Positions 28,172 through 51,502 of a stretch of 64,000 nt of DNA are shown here, piece after piece. The position numbers were made by a program, and so were the translations under genes. The DNA lies in NCBI RefSeq assembly GCF_004121055.1, contig NZ_PYAL01000001.1, positions 1,240,001 through 1,304,000 of the forward strand. The letters are read 5' to 3'. This stretch comes from Achromobacter aloeverae (GTDB taxonomy: Bacteria > Pseudomonadota > Gammaproteobacteria > Burkholderiales > Burkholderiaceae_B). The first letter of the stretch is position 1. Every line of letters begins with the position of its first letter. The notes beneath the pieces are model-generated. The model searched no databases, had not been told where the DNA came from, and saw only the letters and a program-made list of their open reading frames with translations.

Positions 28172-29965
<1,794 letters not shown>

Positions 29966-30000
29966 AGACAGGCGTAAGAGGAAAAAAGGAACGACCAAAA

Positions 30001-30027
30001 ACAAGGGGGCGCGAGGCGCCCCCTTGT
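30001..30027 (-). terminator. Intrinsic terminator of the rpoE-mucD unit
   Basis: ACAAGGGGGCGC (30001-30012) and GCGCCCCCTTGT (30016-30027) form a perfect 12-bp stem with a 3-base loop; on the minus strand it is followed by TTTTTGG. It sits between the mucD/degP stop and lepA. Confidence 0.88.
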
Positions 30028-30061
30028 TGCGGCAACCAGCGATTTTAGCCGGTCTTTGCCC

Positions 30062-31570
30062 CTACTTGGACGGCTGGACCGCGACCCACTGGGTCTGGTC
30101 GCCACGGCGCACCAGGACGCCGATTGCCTTGGACTTGTCAACCTTGCCGGCCGCCTTGACGAATTGCTCGGGGTTGGCGATGTCGGTGTCGTTTATTGCC
30201 AACACAATATCACCCTCCATGATGCCGGCCCGGCCCGCGGCGCCTTCGGCCTGGCGCACCAGGACGCCGCCGGTGATTTTCATCTTGCGCTGGGTTTCCG
30301 CCGGCACCGGCACCACCGTCAGGCCCAGGGCGCTGGAGGACTCCGGCTCCGTCTTGGGGTTGGACTTTTCCTTGGCGGCGGTCTTGGGCGGCTGGATTTC
30401 CGCGACCTTGACCGTCAGCGTCAGGGACTTGCCCTTGCGCCAGACCTGGAGGGGCGCCACGGTGCCCGGCTTGGTCTCGCCCACCATGCGCGGCAGGTCG
30501 GACCAGCGGGCGATGCCGCGGTCATTGAACTTGAGGATGACGTCGCCCGGCTGGACCCCGGCGGCCTCGGCGGGGCTGTCGCCCTCGACGCTGCTGACCA
30601 GGGCGCCTTCCGCCTTGGACAAGCCGATGGCGGTGGCCACGTCGTTGGTCACTTCGCCGATCTGCACGCCGATGCGGCCGCGCGTCACCTTGCCGTTGGC
30701 GCGCAACTGCTCGACCACCCGCATCACTTCGTCGATCGGGATGGCCAGGGAGATCCCCATGAAGCCGCCGCTGCGCGAAATGATCTGCGAGTTGATGCCG
30801 ACCACCTCACCCGCCAGGTTCAGCAGCGGGCCGCCCGAGTTGCCGGGATTGACCGCCACATCGGTCTGGATGAAAGGCAGGTAGTCGCCCGTATCGCGGT
30901 TGATGGCGCTGATGATCCCCGCCGTGACGGTGGAATCCAGGCCGAACGGCGACCCGATGGCCAGCACCCACTGCCCCTTCTTGAGCTTGGAATCGTCCCC
31001 GATGGGCAGCGGCGTCAGGCCCTTGGCGTCGATCTTGAGCAGGGCGACGTCGGTGCGCTCGTCGGTGCCCACGACCTTGGCCTTGAACTCGCGGCCGTCG
31101 GTGGTGGTAACGAAGATGTCGGTGGCGTCGCTGACCACGTGGTTATTGGTCAGCACATAGCCGTCGGCCGAAATGAAGAAGCCGGACCCGACGCCGCGCG
31201 GCACCGTACGCTCTTCCGGCTCCTTGTTGTTGTCCTTGGGCGTCTTGTCGCGCGGCGCGCGCTGGCCCGGCATGCCCGGCGGCTGGAAGTCCGGGCCGAA
31301 GAAGAAGCGGAACAGGTCATAGGGATCCTGGCCGTCCAGGCCCGGGCGGCGCACCGGCACGGTCGCCGTGGTGCGGATATTGACCACCGCCGGATCGGCC
31401 TTTTCCACGATGCCGCTGAAATCGGGAAGCGCGACCGTGGGCATGGGGGTCTGCGCCTGGGTTTGCGCCACCGCGGGTGCGCTGGCGGCCCCGGCCAGCG
31501 CCGCCACGGCGCCCACCGTCACCAGGACGCGTCGCAGGAACGCGCTCGTCTTCTCATAGGAAAAGTTCAT
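30062..31570 (-). CDS. mucD: Periplasmic serine endoprotease, Do/MucD type
   Basis: 502 residues, DegP/HtrA family. After a signal peptide (cleavage near AVAQTQA) the trypsin-like domain shows the triad His144 (TNNHVV), Asp174 (RTDVALLKID) and Ser245 (GNSGGPL). Two PDZ domains follow (about 285-375 and 405-495; segments EGDSPAEAAGVQPGDVILKFND and GRAGIMEGDIVLAINDTDI). It degrades or refolds damaged envelope proteins. It is the fourth gene after rpoE-rseA-rseB, exactly as mucD in the algU-mucABCD cluster of Pseudomonas, and is probably sigma-E controlled. An extra Gly/Pro/Asp/Lys-rich loop (about 95-122) precedes the His motif. Confidence 0.95.
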   Translation of the reverse strand: MNFSYEKTSAFLRRVLVTVGAVAALAGAASAPAVAQTQAQTPMPTVALPDFSGIVEKADPAVVNIRTTATVPVRRPGLDGQDPYDLFRFFFGPDFQPPGMPGQRAPRDKTPKDNNKEPEERTVPRGVGSGFFISADGYVLTNNHVVSDATDIFVTTTDGREFKAKVVGTDERTDVALLKIDAKGLTPLPIGDDSKLKKGQWVLAIGSPFGLDSTVTAGIISAINRDTGDYLPFIQTDVAVNPGNSGGPLLNLAGEVVGINSQIISRSGGFMGISLAIPIDEVMRVVEQLRANGKVTRGRIGVQIGEVTNDVATAIGLSKAEGALVSSVEGDSPAEAAGVQPGDVILKFNDRGIARWSDLPRMVGETKPGTVAPLQVWRKGKSLTLTVKVAEIQPPKTAAKEKSNPKTEPESSSALGLTVVPVPAETQRKMKITGGVLVRQAEGAAGRAGIMEGDIVLAINDTDIANPEQFVKAAGKVDKSKAIGVLVRRGDQTQWVAVQPSK

Positions 31571-31678
31571 GTACAGCTCCGCTTGGATATACGGGTCTTT
31601 CTACCATGGATTCAAGAAGAAAATCCGAGCCGGCCCGCTGCAACACGGCGCGCCGGGAGCGATTTCTTGAAAATTTGT

Positions 31679-32737
31679 TTATTTCTGGACCGGCGCCGGC
31701 GCCGCGGGCGGCACGAACTCGGTCGACTTCGCCAGCTGCTCCAGCGTCCCGGAGGGCACCTCGCCTAGCGCGGTCAGCCAGTAATCGGCAATACGCGTGC
31801 CGTAGACGCTGACGGCGCCCCGGCGATAGGCGCCATGGGGCTGGCGGCTGTTGCGCTTCTTGTCGAAAGGCTCGATGAAAACCGAAATGGCGGCCAGTCC
31901 ATCGGACAGGACCAATTGGCTTACCGATTCGTTGTGCCCCAGGATGCGCGCGACCTGCGACACCTGGACGAAACCGGGCGGCACGGGAATGCGCCAGCCC
32001 TGGGCGGTCAGGTCGATCGGCTGCATGGTGGCTTGCTGGACCTTCCAGTCCTTGTACGGCCAGCGCGACTCCAGCAACCTGCCGTCGACGTCCCTGCCCA
32101 GGCGCAAGGTGGTGAAGGTCACCTGCTCGATGACGCTATTGCCGCCGGACAGCGTCTGCGCCTTCAGCAGCAGGTCGTTCTGTTCGTCGGCGCACAGGCG
32201 ATACCCGTAGCGCGCCTTGTCCAGGGGCTCTATCGTGATCATGCGGCACTCGCGGCCCGCGATACGTCGCGGCGCGGCTTCGCTATAGACCTGGTAGAAC
32301 CGCGTCACCGCCGCCGGCGAACCCAGCAAGAGCCCTGGGAAGCGGTCGGCGCGCCGCTGCTGCGAGAGCACCATCTTGCGTTCGGGCACCAGGCATTGCA
32401 CGTCGTCGTTATGGCGCAGATATTCGCGCGGCTGGCCGTCCAGCACTTCGAGGCGCTCGCGCTCGCCGCTGCCGTCGACCATGTGCACCAGGCGCGAGGA
32501 TTGAATCAACTCGCCCTGCTGGTAGGTAAAGATGCCGGCGTAATCCAGCTTGCGCGCGGCCTCCTGGATACGCGACAGCAAGGCTTGCGCCTCTTCCGCG
32601 GCCAGGGGCATGCGCGTGGCCGCGCCGCCTTGGGCTTGTGCCAGGCTGCCGCCCAGGCAGGTCAGCAGGGCCACGACAGACAGGCTCATCGCCCGGGTGG
32701 CGCCGCGCAGGCTGGGCATCGCCAAGGTCGCGATCAT
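31679..32737 (-). CDS. rseB: Periplasmic sigma-E regulator RseB/MucB
   Basis: 352 residues from the ATG at 32737, overlapping the rseA stop by one base (TGATG). RseB binds the periplasmic part of RseA and shields it from DegS until mislocalised LPS or lipoprotein is sensed. A signal peptide (core SLSVVALLTCLGGSLAQAQ) is followed by the lipoprotein-carrier-like fold: LDYAGIFTYQQGELIQSSRLVHMVDGSG and the segment EYLRHNDDVQCLVP are characteristic, and the C-terminal domain has SDGLAAISVFIEPF. Confidence 0.94.
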   Translation of the reverse strand: MIATLAMPSLRGATRAMSLSVVALLTCLGGSLAQAQGGAATRMPLAAEEAQALLSRIQEAARKLDYAGIFTYQQGELIQSSRLVHMVDGSGERERLEVLDGQPREYLRHNDDVQCLVPERKMVLSQQRRADRFPGLLLGSPAAVTRFYQVYSEAAPRRIAGRECRMITIEPLDKARYGYRLCADEQNDLLLKAQTLSGGNSVIEQVTFTTLRLGRDVDGRLLESRWPYKDWKVQQATMQPIDLTAQGWRIPVPPGFVQVSQVARILGHNESVSQLVLSDGLAAISVFIEPFDKKRNSRQPHGAYRRGAVSVYGTRIADYWLTALGEVPSGTLEQLAKSTEFVPPAAPAPVQK

Positions 32738-33264
32738 CAGCGCCCGGCCCCCAGGTCGAAGGAAACCTGGCGGATGGCGCTGGGGCCGGCCATCTGCATG
32801 TGCGCTTCCAGATAATCGCGGAGCACCGGCTCGTCGGCGGCCGATGCCGCGGGCGTGGCGTCGGCAATGACCCGGGTCTCCTGCGACGGTGCGCTGCCGC
32901 CACCCAGCAGGGGCTGGGCTACCCAGACCACCGACGCCACCGCGGCAGCCATCGCCGCGCCGGAAAGGCTCAAGCGCCACGCCGGACGCGAAAACCGGCC
33001 CTTGCGCGGCGCCGCCACGATGGTGAGTTCGTTATCCAGCGCCGCCGCCAGGCGGGCGCGAAAACCGGCCGAAGGCGGAATCGCCAGTTCGGCATTGCGC
33101 AGGACATCGCCTATCAGGTGGTAGGTATCCCAGGTTTCCCGGCCCTCGGCGACATCCAGGCCGTCGAGCCACTCCTCGGAACCCTCGCCATCCATCCAGG
33201 CCGACACCGACGCTTCCCAGGACAGTTCTTCCTCGGACAGTTCGGACGGATCTGTGTGTTGCAT
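32737..33264 (-). CDS. rseA: Anti-sigma-E factor RseA/MucA
   Basis: 175 residues from the ATG at 33264, with AAGGAG nine bases upstream. The N-terminal cytoplasmic domain that clamps RpoE is recognisable (SELSEEELSWEASVSAWMDGEG and WDTYHLIGDVLR), a single membrane helix lies around 105-125 (LSLSGAAMAAAVASVVWVA), and a short periplasmic tail ends in DYLEAHMQMAGPSAIRQVSF, a motif shared with MucA-type proteins and likely bound by RseB. It is located between rpoE and rseB. Confidence 0.93.
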   Translation of the reverse strand: MQHTDPSELSEEELSWEASVSAWMDGEGSEEWLDGLDVAEGRETWDTYHLIGDVLRNAELAIPPSAGFRARLAAALDNELTIVAAPRKGRFSRPAWRLSLSGAAMAAAVASVVWVAQPLLGGGSAPSQETRVIADATPAASAADEPVLRDYLEAHMQMAGPSAIRQVSFDLGAGR

Positions 33265-33277
33265 GATGACTTGCTCC

Positions 33278-33877
33278 TTACCAGCGACGATCGGCATCGT
33301 TGCCGAGCATGGGCCGCAAACGGGCGGCGACGGCCTCGCGCGCGCGAAAAATCCGCGAACGCACGGTGCCGATGGGACATCCCATGCTCTGGGCGATGTC
33401 TTCGTAACTCATTCCTTCAATTTCCCGCAGGACAATCGCCGTGCGCAGCTCTTCAGGCAAGCTCTCGATCGCCGCGTTCACCGTCTCGGCGATTTCGCGG
33501 CTGGCGACCATGGATTCGGGGGTGCTTATATCGCTTAGGTTGTCCGCCTCGTTAAAAGTTTCACCATCTTCGTTCTCCACCGCCGTCGGGGCGCTGGGGC
33601 GGCGCCCGCTGGAAGCCAGCCAATTGCGCGCGGTATTGATGGCGATACGGTACAGCCAGGTGTAAAAAGCACTCTCGCCACGGAACTGCGGCAAGGCGCG
33701 GTAGGCCTTGATGAAAGCTTCCTGGGCGACATCCTCGATTTCCGAGGGGTCGCGGATCATGCGGGAGAGCAGCCGCATGATCTTGCGCTGATACTTCATG
33801 ACCAGCAGATCGAAAGCCTTCTTGTCGCCGCGCTGGACACGGGTGACCAGTTCGGCGTCGATTTCACGTTCGCTCAT
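33278..33877 (-). CDS. rpoE: RNA polymerase sigma factor RpoE/AlgU
   Basis: 199 residues from the ATG at 33877 (GGGGA upstream). Extracytoplasmic-function sigma factor of group ECF02. Region 2 (FDLLVMKYQRKIMRLLSRMIRDPSEIEDVAQEAFIKAYRAL, with FYTWLYRIAINTARNWL) binds the -10 element and region 4 (LPEELRTAIVLREIEGMSYEDIAQSMGCPIGTVRSRIFRARE) the -35 element. It drives envelope-stress genes; rseA, rseB and mucD follow on the same strand. The upstream YgfX-like gene overlaps it by 4 bases. Confidence 0.97.
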   Translation of the reverse strand: MSEREIDAELVTRVQRGDKKAFDLLVMKYQRKIMRLLSRMIRDPSEIEDVAQEAFIKAYRALPQFRGESAFYTWLYRIAINTARNWLASSGRRPSAPTAVENEDGETFNEADNLSDISTPESMVASREIAETVNAAIESLPEELRTAIVLREIEGMSYEDIAQSMGCPIGTVRSRIFRAREAVAARLRPMLGNDADRRW

Positions 33878-34404
33878 GCTGTCCCCGTCTCCCCCGCTGC
33901 CGTCGGCGTGCGCGGGGCCTGCCGGCCGCGCACACGCGCGCGGCGCAGGTTCCGATGGCTCAGCAGGCTCAGCCGCCGCCAGGCGGGAGCCGGCAGCGCA
34001 TCCTGCCAGACGGTGAAGGAAACCCGGCGCGCACGCCAAGGCCCCACGCGGGGGCTGAGCGGCGCCGGCAGATCGCCTTGCAGGGCAAGGCAGCGCCAGC
34101 CCCGCGCCACGGCACGCAAGGCCAGCGGGCGCCACCCCCAGGGCTGGCGCACGTACAAGGCATGATCGGCGGTGTAGCGCAAGGCCCGCACGGCGGGCTT
34201 GCGCGCACGCGCGCTGGTCGCGGCGCCCGCTACCGCGGCCAGCGCCAGCAGGCAGGCCGACCCGGCGGGCAGGCCCAGCCAGCACAGGGCGCACGCGGCA
34301 GCCGCGCCGCCCAGGCAGCGCATGACGGGTTCGGCCAGCACCACCCAGCGCGGCCGCAACACCGGCACGCGCAAGGTCCAGCCGCTATGCTCCCCGGCGC
34401 TCAA
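33874..34404 (-). CDS. YgfX-like small membrane protein between fabF and rpoE
   Basis: About 176 residues if begun at the TTG at 34404, which lies one base after the fabF stop; another TTG at 34446 would overlap fabF. Two closely spaced hydrophobic helices (around MRCLGGAAAACALCWLGLPAGSACLLALAAVAGAATS) form a hairpin. The soluble part that follows (ALRYTADHALYVRQPWGWRPLALRAVARGWRCLALQG...VSFTVWQDALPAPAWRRL) has the shape of the YgfX/CptA family, whose E. coli member pairs with SdhE/YgfY. No SdhE gene is nearby, so function here is open. Start codon and family are both tentative. Confidence 0.6.
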   Translation of the reverse strand: MSAGEHSGWTLRVPVLRPRWVVLAEPVMRCLGGAAAACALCWLGLPAGSACLLALAAVAGAATSARARKPAVRALRYTADHALYVRQPWGWRPLALRAVARGWRCLALQGDLPAPLSPRVGPWRARRVSFTVWQDALPAPAWRRLSLLSHRNLRRARVRGRQAPRTPTAAGETGTA

Positions 34405-34405
34405 A

Positions 34406-35635
<1,230 letters not shown>

Positions 35636-35650
35636 GGATGACTCCTCAAA

Positions 35651-35792
35651 CAGACAAAACAAAGGCGGCCCGGAACATGCCGCCCGCGAGCGGCGCGCAT
35701 GCGCGGGGCCTGCCGGTCGGGCGCAAGCCTGGAAGGCCACGCCCGGGCACGGACCGCATGGCCCGACCCCGCGCTATCGCGCGGCATGTTCC
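35651..35792 (-). promoter_or_regulatory. Nested hairpin with overlapping intrinsic terminator (putative attenuator) between acpP and fabF
   Basis: On the minus strand the acpP-fabF gap can fold into a long hairpin: outer arms at 35781-35792 and 35672-35683 (GGAACATGCCGC with GCGGCATGTTCC), then a 14-base strand 35761-35774 pairing with 35717-35722 and 35701-35708 around an 8-base bulge. The 3' outer arm overlaps a second, mutually exclusive hairpin GGCGGC/GCCGCC (35664-35669 and 35679-35684, 9-base loop) that is followed by TTTGTTTTGTCTG, an intrinsic terminator just ahead of the fabF ribosome-binding site. This geometry is that of a terminator/antiterminator switch, or at least a partial terminator that keeps fabF below acpP. 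The ligand or trigger, if any, is unknown. Confidence 0.6.
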
Positions 35793-35853
35793 AAAAACCG
35801 CCCTGGTTCCCGCCGGAGGACCGAACCTCCAGCGCGGGGAAGGAAAGGCTAGC

Positions 35854-36093
35854 TTACTGCTTACCGTGCGAATTGATGTAATCGATCGCTTGTTGCACGG
35901 TCGTGATCTTTTCGGCCTCTTCGTCGGGGATCTCGGTCTCGAATTCGTCTTCGAGGGCCATGACCAGCTCAACCATGTCGAGCGAATCGGCACCGAGGTC
36001 GTCAAGAAAGGAAGACTCGTTCTTGATCTCGGCTTCATTGACGCCAAGTTGTTCAGCGACGATCTTCTTGACGCGCTGTTCGATGCTTTCCAT
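35854..36093 (-). CDS. acpP: Acyl carrier protein
   Basis: 79 residues, acidic four-helix carrier of acyl chains for fatty-acid and lipid A synthesis. Ser37 in DSLDMVEL is the 4'-phosphopantetheine attachment site. The start ATG at 36093 has GGAG seven bases upstream. A strong sigma-70 promoter lies directly ahead, independent of the fabG gene upstream, fitting the high abundance of this protein. Confidence 0.98.
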
Positions 36094-36123: not shown

Positions 36124-36151
36124 ATTATAGCCAAGCGCAGAGGAATGCAAA
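36124..36151 (-). promoter_or_regulatory. Sigma-70 promoter of acpP
   Basis: On the minus strand TTTGCA (36151-36146), 16 bases, TATAAT (36129-36124). Transcription would begin near 36117, about 24 bases before the acpP ATG. The remainder of the 210-base fabG-acpP gap contains no other feature I can name. Confidence 0.75.
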
Positions 36152-51354: not shown

Positions 51355-51383
51355 TCGCGCCTGCCAGGCTGATCGGCCCTGAA

Positions 51384-51424
51384 CCCCGAGGCCCGGACGA
51401 CCCCGTCCGGCCCTCGGGGTTTTT
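51384..51424 (+). terminator. Intrinsic terminator of rne
   Basis: CCCCGAGG...CCCTCGGGG arms (51384-51419, one mismatch) followed by TTTTT, 30 bases after the rne stop. Confidence 0.88.
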
Positions 51425-51474: not shown

Positions 51475-51502
51475 AAAGGGCGGTCCTTGCGGACCGCCCT
51501 TT
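51475..51502 (-). terminator. Intrinsic terminator of pagL
   Basis: Perfect 12-bp stem AAAGGGCGGTCC/GGACCGCCCTTT with loop TTGC; on the minus strand it is followed by CTTTTTCC. It lies 48 bases past the pagL stop and faces the rne terminator. Confidence 0.88.

Follow-up and report, generated by a model that had tools for sequence, protein, structure and literature searches.

An unusually long terminator-like hairpin conserved between acpP and fabF in Achromobacter aloeverae and its relatives

The region described here lies in a window of 64,000 nucleotides from Achromobacter aloeverae (the whole stretch of DNA that was analysed) and comprises, in order on the minus strand, acpP (36093–35854), a gap of 218 nt and fabF (GTG at 35635). 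The acyl carrier protein gene acpP runs from an ATG at 36093–36091 to a stop codon at 35856–35854, and the protein of relatives is identical or nearly so. A promoter scan of the sequence places a promoter-like site, TTTGCA-16-TATAAT, upstream of this gene (36124–36151). The gene fabF (34406–35635), identified as encoding 3-oxoacyl-ACP synthase II, has its GTG start at 35635–35633, preceded by a Shine–Dalgarno sequence, GAGGAG, at 35642–35647. The segment from the Shine–Dalgarno sequence to the GTG (35636–35645) is strikingly constant, and 88 of 111 loci of the family have GGAGTCATCC abutting the start codon. The gap holds a smaller hairpin (H1, 35809–35837, seen in the fold) located 3' of the acpP stop codon and upstream of the main feature, a giant terminator-like hairpin of 140 nt (H2, 35664–35803), which is a conserved element as judged by its fold, z score and covariation. 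A U-tract, TTTGTTTTG (35655–35663), adjoins the 3' base of H2; all of these features are on the minus strand. Downstream of fabF on the same strand (28172–34294) are open reading frames which by eye resemble a sigma-E-type sigma factor, its regulators, a DegP-like protease and LepA; as they share the strand, read-through at acpP could reach them too.

For comparison, 250 genomes of the bacterial family were sampled, and 239 of them yielded acpP. The family set consists of 111 acpP–fabF loci, from 96 genomes (that of the window included) and 15 named records, with 106 distinct gaps; the loci derive from acpP hits with the better scores and are accordingly weighted towards close relatives. Among the named members are Achromobacter, Bordetella hinzii, Schauerella, Alcaligenes, Allopusillimonas, Pusillimonas and Paenalcaligenes. 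Two copies of the locus in the window (L001 and L002) are excluded from the family counts, and four further entries (L008–L011) are without an acpP or FabF match. The acpP promoter motif is well preserved in this set: 106 of 111 loci have TATAAT no more than 60 nt in front of acpP, and 99 of 111 have GGCTATAATTC upstream of the gene. When a -35 hexamer was also demanded, 71 of the 106 loci having enough upstream sequence passed. Inside the gap, by comparison, a promoter-like site was found in one of the 111 loci, on which ground a fabF promoter in the gap was rejected as a general feature; between 35600 and 36350 in the window, the sole promoter-like site found is acpP's own.

An earlier note on this DNA, in which the sequence and coordinates of 35651–35792 were given correctly, had described a perfect 12-bp stem formed by 35781–35792 (5' arm) and 35672–35683 (3' arm). 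This stem is indeed perfect, with pair probabilities of 0.73–1.0, and a perfect stem of at least 12 bp appears in four of 1000 dinucleotide shuffles of the gap. It had been taken as the outermost, but a basal stem lies outside it in which GGGCGGUU (35803–35796) pairs with GGCCGCC (35670–35664), an assignment drawn from the pair probabilities (0.52–1.0) and from the clade alignment. The outermost base, 35803, pairs with U 35663, the first of the tract, so that the basal stem closes H2 at the U-tract (35663–35656, UUUGUUUU); recognition of this stem changes the interpretation of the hairpin. The 14-bp inner stem proposed at the same time stands in part: 8 bp (35767–35774 with 35701–35708) form with a probability of 0.98–1.0, while the other 6 bp (35761–35766 with 35717–35722) have a probability of 0.0, since a branched arrangement is preferred. 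The region 35640–35800 has a z score of -2.94, with one of 200 shuffles folding as well, and H2 alone has a z score of -4.93, with none of 100 shuffles as good.

One feature of intrinsic terminators is present, namely a GC-rich hairpin directly 5' of a U-tract on the transcribed strand. Two observations speak against reading H2 as a terminator: the U-tract of the window, UUUGUUUU, is interrupted, and the span of 140 nt is unusual for a terminator, in place of the compact stem-loop typical of that class. An automatic terminator scan, with loops limited to 3–8 nt, picked up neither the long fold nor a shorter local hairpin considered below. The window-wide terminator scan of 30 entries is loose and places the base for the acpP–fabF locus in a shifted position; its long weak entries are probably due to chance. 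Elsewhere in the window, two compact terminators face each other (51476–51501 on the minus strand and 51381–51422 on the plus strand). The former has a GGGCGGT/ACCGCCC stem resembling that of the acpP hairpin, and this likeness suggests that the genome may commonly use such a stem for its terminators. The earlier note had proposed a search against Rfam; with Rfam 15 there is no match at the gathering score in the window and none at E values up to 5 in 35600–35900, and a known Rfam family for H2 was rejected on that basis.

Long hairpins of the H2 type were sought in the family gaps as two arms forming 7 or more contiguous pairs (4 or more of them G–C), separated by 50 nt or more and followed by a T-rich stretch. 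Such arms are present in 101 of 111 gaps, and also in 50 of 224 controls, which were derived from every second locus by keeping the final 45 nt and shuffling the rest, so that this criterion alone is loose. The hairpins so identified span 74–166 nt, with a median of 102 nt, and the minimum-energy folds contain a pair spanning more than 60 nt at the T-tract in 96 of the 111 loci. A non-redundant set was formed from 56 elements of less than 85% identity, of which three (L026, L129 and L146) were dropped since their arms had been picked wrongly. All 53 remaining elements have z scores below -2 and 47 have z scores below -3 (median -4.8). H1 is weakly supported in relatives, with a median z score of -1.85 and 26 of 53 below -2. 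The T fractions at the first eight tract positions are 1.0, 1.0, 0.96, 0.51, 0.90, 0.88, 0.73 and 0.76, as calculated from the 49 of 53 elements which match a pattern that itself demands at least five T in eight.

The search was extended to less close genera by querying 18 genomes, one of which gave no match; among the resulting 17 loci, one genus (g40) was already represented by L181, and L226 has the same gap as L063. The script's criterion picked out ten of the 17 and inspection by eye accepted eight, namely L216, L217, L218, L221, L223, L229 and L230, plus L224, which the script had missed. The hairpin accepted in L223 differs from the one that the script picked, and three of the script's loci (L215, L219 and L222) were rejected by eye. 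No long element was seen by eye in L197, L220, L225, L226, L227 and L228; two of these genomes are smaller than 1 Mb. The H2-type element is thus widespread in the family but not universal, being absent from several lineages, as is also evident from the ten of 111 family loci that lack the paired arms.

Two variations on the hairpin were noted. In three loci of one genus (L158, L159 and L161; genus g20) the long hairpin contains an extra near-perfect palindrome of the GTTATTCCAAATC...GATTTGGAATAAC type, in which differences between species mostly preserve pairing. When four genomes of this genus were searched for the exact pattern, it turned up at the acpP–fabF locus in three and nowhere in the fourth. 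At the acpP–fabF junction of L097 (an Oligella MAG), L106, L113 and L229 there is a hairpin of complementary order, CCGCCTA...TAGGCGG-TTTTT, as if the stem had been re-invented.

The earlier note interpreted the locus as a switch, in which either the extended hairpin or a local GGCGGC/GCCGCC terminator (35664–35684) decides whether fabF is transcribed. Both repeats are present in the window and the local hairpin could conceivably form first during transcription, but at equilibrium its pairs have a probability of 0.0, and forcing it costs 17 kcal/mol over 35653–35810 (-85.3 versus -102.3 kcal/mol). A local hairpin of at least 5 bp inside the 3' arm and ending at the T-tract is found in four of the 53 elements: that of the window, two of the same genus (L004 and L005) and one of another genus (L048). 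Moreover, the long hairpin too runs up to the U-tract, which gives both folds the shape of a terminator and leaves no antiterminator among them; sharing their 3' end and U-tract, the two cannot constitute a terminator/antiterminator pair. An antiterminator further upstream was also sought. In the 53 elements, the best contiguous match between the 5' arm and the 200 nt before it averages 7.79 bp, versus 7.81 bp in a control of one mononucleotide shuffle per element, which is not above chance. Neither of the hallmarks of an attenuator or riboswitch, a conserved and mutually exclusive terminator and antiterminator or a match to a known family, was found here. Given the rarity of the local hairpin and the lack of an upstream complement, a conserved two-state switch was rejected, and we regard the switch as very improbable, with a slight residual chance for one restricted to the window's genus. 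The other suggestion made in the earlier note, that graded termination puts fabF below acpP, is plausible and would fit the sequence data.

Conservation of pairing in relatives, which the earlier note named as the point on which its proposal could fail, is borne out for the long hairpin by the z scores and by covariation. A family-wide alignment (A1) of 51 diverse elements, being the 53 without L147, L156 and L161 and with L006 added, recovers ten basal pairs and nothing more, three of them with a double change. The basal stem of the GGCGGUUU/AAACCGCC type and the U-tract are kept throughout, whereas the upper arm drifts, with a mean column identity of 39% in A1, and the upper helix emerges only in clade-by-clade alignments. 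The first of these (A2) covers clade A, the Achromobacter/Bordetella-like group, with 42 of 44 sequences (L136 and L138 were left out) and 35 pairs; the second (A3) covers clade B, with 22 of the 27 short-type rows of A1 (L047, L141, L160, L163 and L171 were left out) and 24 pairs. In clade A 88.9% of cells are paired, against at most 55.7% when slid, and in clade B 89.3% against at most 55.8%; likewise the covariation score for clade A is 0.272 against at most 0.141 when slid, although the structures scored came from the same alignments (38 of 42 rows in A2), which favours slide 0 somewhat. There are 104 double-change cells in clade A, compared with a shuffle mean of 44.7. Two of the five measures for this clade do not beat all shuffles, with 47 of 500 as high for double-change pairs and 34 of 500 for further pair types; five pairs of the basal helix are invariant across the 42 aligned sequences. 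Clade B has 14 pairs with double changes, and none of 500 shuffles is as high on any of the five measures. Over the 53 elements, in an alignment scoring both strands alike, G–U pairs outnumber A–C pairs by 250 to 70, an excess that points to RNA of the acpP strand; shared ancestry inflates these counts and the associated p-value is descriptive. At the level of sequence comparison, the alignments show a hairpin that compensatory change has kept as a structural RNA on the acpP strand, sited between the acpP promoter motif and fabF.

A GC-rich palindrome in an intergenic gap might also be a repeated or mobile DNA element that landed there by chance. This was addressed with a model (R1) built on clade A and with a DNA search. 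In the window's genome R1 gave one match (150 of 15284 first-look candidates scored) and the DNA search located H2 in one place (40 of 90 first-look candidates scored); as the candidates were scored in part, a single copy is likely rather than proven. Among 121 family genomes, with 30 candidates scored in each, R1 matched in 23, of which 22 at the acpP–fabF locus. The 28 matches comprise 22 at the locus on the acpP strand, five to the same hairpin on the opposite strand and one elsewhere, a marginal match in G009 with an E value of 0.009. The model matches few genomes because the upper helix differs between clades, and for this reason the case for spread within the family is built on the arm criterion and on the separate alignments. 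The many copies per genome expected of a mobile element were thus not seen within the candidates scored. As many genera carry the hairpin at the same junction and the excess of G–U over A–C argues for RNA, a repeated element was rejected on the DNA and model searches, and the chance that H2 is one appears negligible.

The main rival to a terminator is that H2 is chiefly a processing site, at which RNase III (or RNase E adjacent to it) would cut the acpP–fabF transcript so that acpP is left on a stable mRNA and fabF on one of its own; the U-tract would then be secondary. A helix of at least 20 bp would suit RNase III, and one of this length (loops of at most 2 nt tolerated) is present in 35 of the 53 elements, with a median of 22 bp, but is lacking in the other 18. 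The retention of the upper helix by double changes while its sequence drifts is likewise in keeping with processing; a U-tract right at the stem base would be unexpected for a pure processing site. In Salmonella, cleavage in the acpP–fabF gap has been suggested to uncouple the decay of both parts (PMC8096218). The main text of a B. pertussis study of RNase III and RNase E makes no mention of acpP or fabF (PMC8386462). On balance, we consider processing as the main function unlikely.

Small RNAs arise from 3' untranslated regions with hairpins and a U-tail at abundant mRNAs, and the conserved region 3' of acpP has this appearance. The hairpin and U-tail might accordingly be released as a small RNA acting in trans, for example with Hfq. 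Conservation is confined to the basal stem and U-tract, so that by eye there is no conserved single-stranded seed, and the U-tail is not continuous. Neither gene is mentioned in the main text of a paper on the B. pertussis Hfq interactome (PMC12235514), and among the listed entries of the bpr table of PMC3110155 none could be matched to acpP by locus number. A small RNA seems to us a good deal less probable than a processing site.

In our view, the most consistent interpretation is that H2 is a partial intrinsic terminator which does not switch, is unusually long and forms the 3' end of the acpP mRNA, and we hold this reading with fair confidence on the strength of the sequence. The gap would then encode the acpP mRNA 3' end, with the GGCGGUUU/AAACCGCC-type stem closing the long hairpin right before the U-rich tract. 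RNA polymerase starting from the conserved acpP promoter motif would often halt in the U-tract, yielding a short, hairpin-protected and abundant acpP mRNA, and the remaining polymerase would read through into fabF, a gene with no evident promoter of its own in or near the gap. We infer from this arrangement that termination occurs, with an efficiency and a protection of the 3' end that would affect the ratio of acyl carrier protein to FabF. A basal stem alone suffices for termination. The basal stem of H2 would be the part that terminates, and the upper helix would join the distant arms and may also aid processing or stability of the mRNA, although this is a guess; that it is kept by double changes, beyond what a terminator needs, suggests a further role. 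In E. coli, according to a review, fabF has its own strong promoter (PMC3896788), and so fabF need not depend on read-through.

It is also possible, although we put it forward tentatively and think it rather less likely than its opposite, that the expanded acpP 3' hairpin represents an undescribed class of structural RNA in this family, arising where an ordinary terminator has grown into a long covarying helix that does more than terminate. Its further function may be processing, 3'-end protection or sensing that tunes read-through. Such an element would set how much FabF, and how much product of any genes co-transcribed behind fabF, is made relative to acyl carrier protein. If the partial-terminator reading is true, it shows how a single operon can supply two adjacent proteins of an essential pathway in widely differing quantities. 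It would also follow that a terminator can be stretched to a long helix whose pairing evolution maintains. A new RNA family entry could be started from the alignments, which could also open the function of the long arm to direct testing.

Comparison of H2 with intrinsic terminators in operons indicates a shared plan, with a GC-rich stem followed by a U-rich tract after an abundant gene and before a co-directional one. The two differ in size and in the covariation that is also seen in the upper helix of H2. H2 spans 140 nt (family median 102 nt), whereas 16 of 18 terminator-like hairpins at other loci span 22–61 nt and the two most ordinary-looking terminators in the window (our choice) are 26 and 42 nt long. 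These 18 hairpins come from a set of 95 further loci, including E. coli and one family member (L197), and were identified with a criterion that differs from the arm criterion used for the family; 56 of the gaps are 15–58 nt long, the lengths being extrapolated from BLAST alignments and in some cases perhaps a few bases off (for E. coli, 90 nt against 87 nt in the annotation). The two longer hairpins (L074 and L079, Chromobacterium) are apparently scan artefacts, as their gaps visibly contain shorter hairpins.

The junction itself provides the closest parallels. In the same gap, E. coli MG1655 has a short GGCGGTC/GACCGCC hairpin and a T-rich stretch after acpP, and E. coli and Vibrio/Photobacterium share with the family a hairpin with a GGCGG/CCGCC stem plus a T-rich stretch, but theirs is 22–23 nt long compared with at least 74 nt. 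A terminator at this junction therefore occurs elsewhere in Proteobacteria; the shared GGCGG stem may be a convergence, and the expansion to at least 74 nt seems to be confined to this family. Transcripts of E. coli acpP are said to carry the gene either alone or together with fabF (PMC2698124). Terminator attenuators and riboswitches resemble H2 in placing a terminator-like hairpin before a gene, but H2 is without a conserved antiterminator, an aptamer-like conserved sequence (as judged by eye) or an Rfam match. The rplL–rpoB junction of E. coli, where a partial terminator following an abundant product reportedly lowers expression of the downstream gene, is similar in this respect but has a short hairpin and belongs to another operon. 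No description of a long covarying acpP–fabF hairpin was found in the open-licence literature among the matches listed. Partial terminators are familiar, and E. coli and Vibrio offer parallels for a terminator at this junction; the long covarying form appears to be new.
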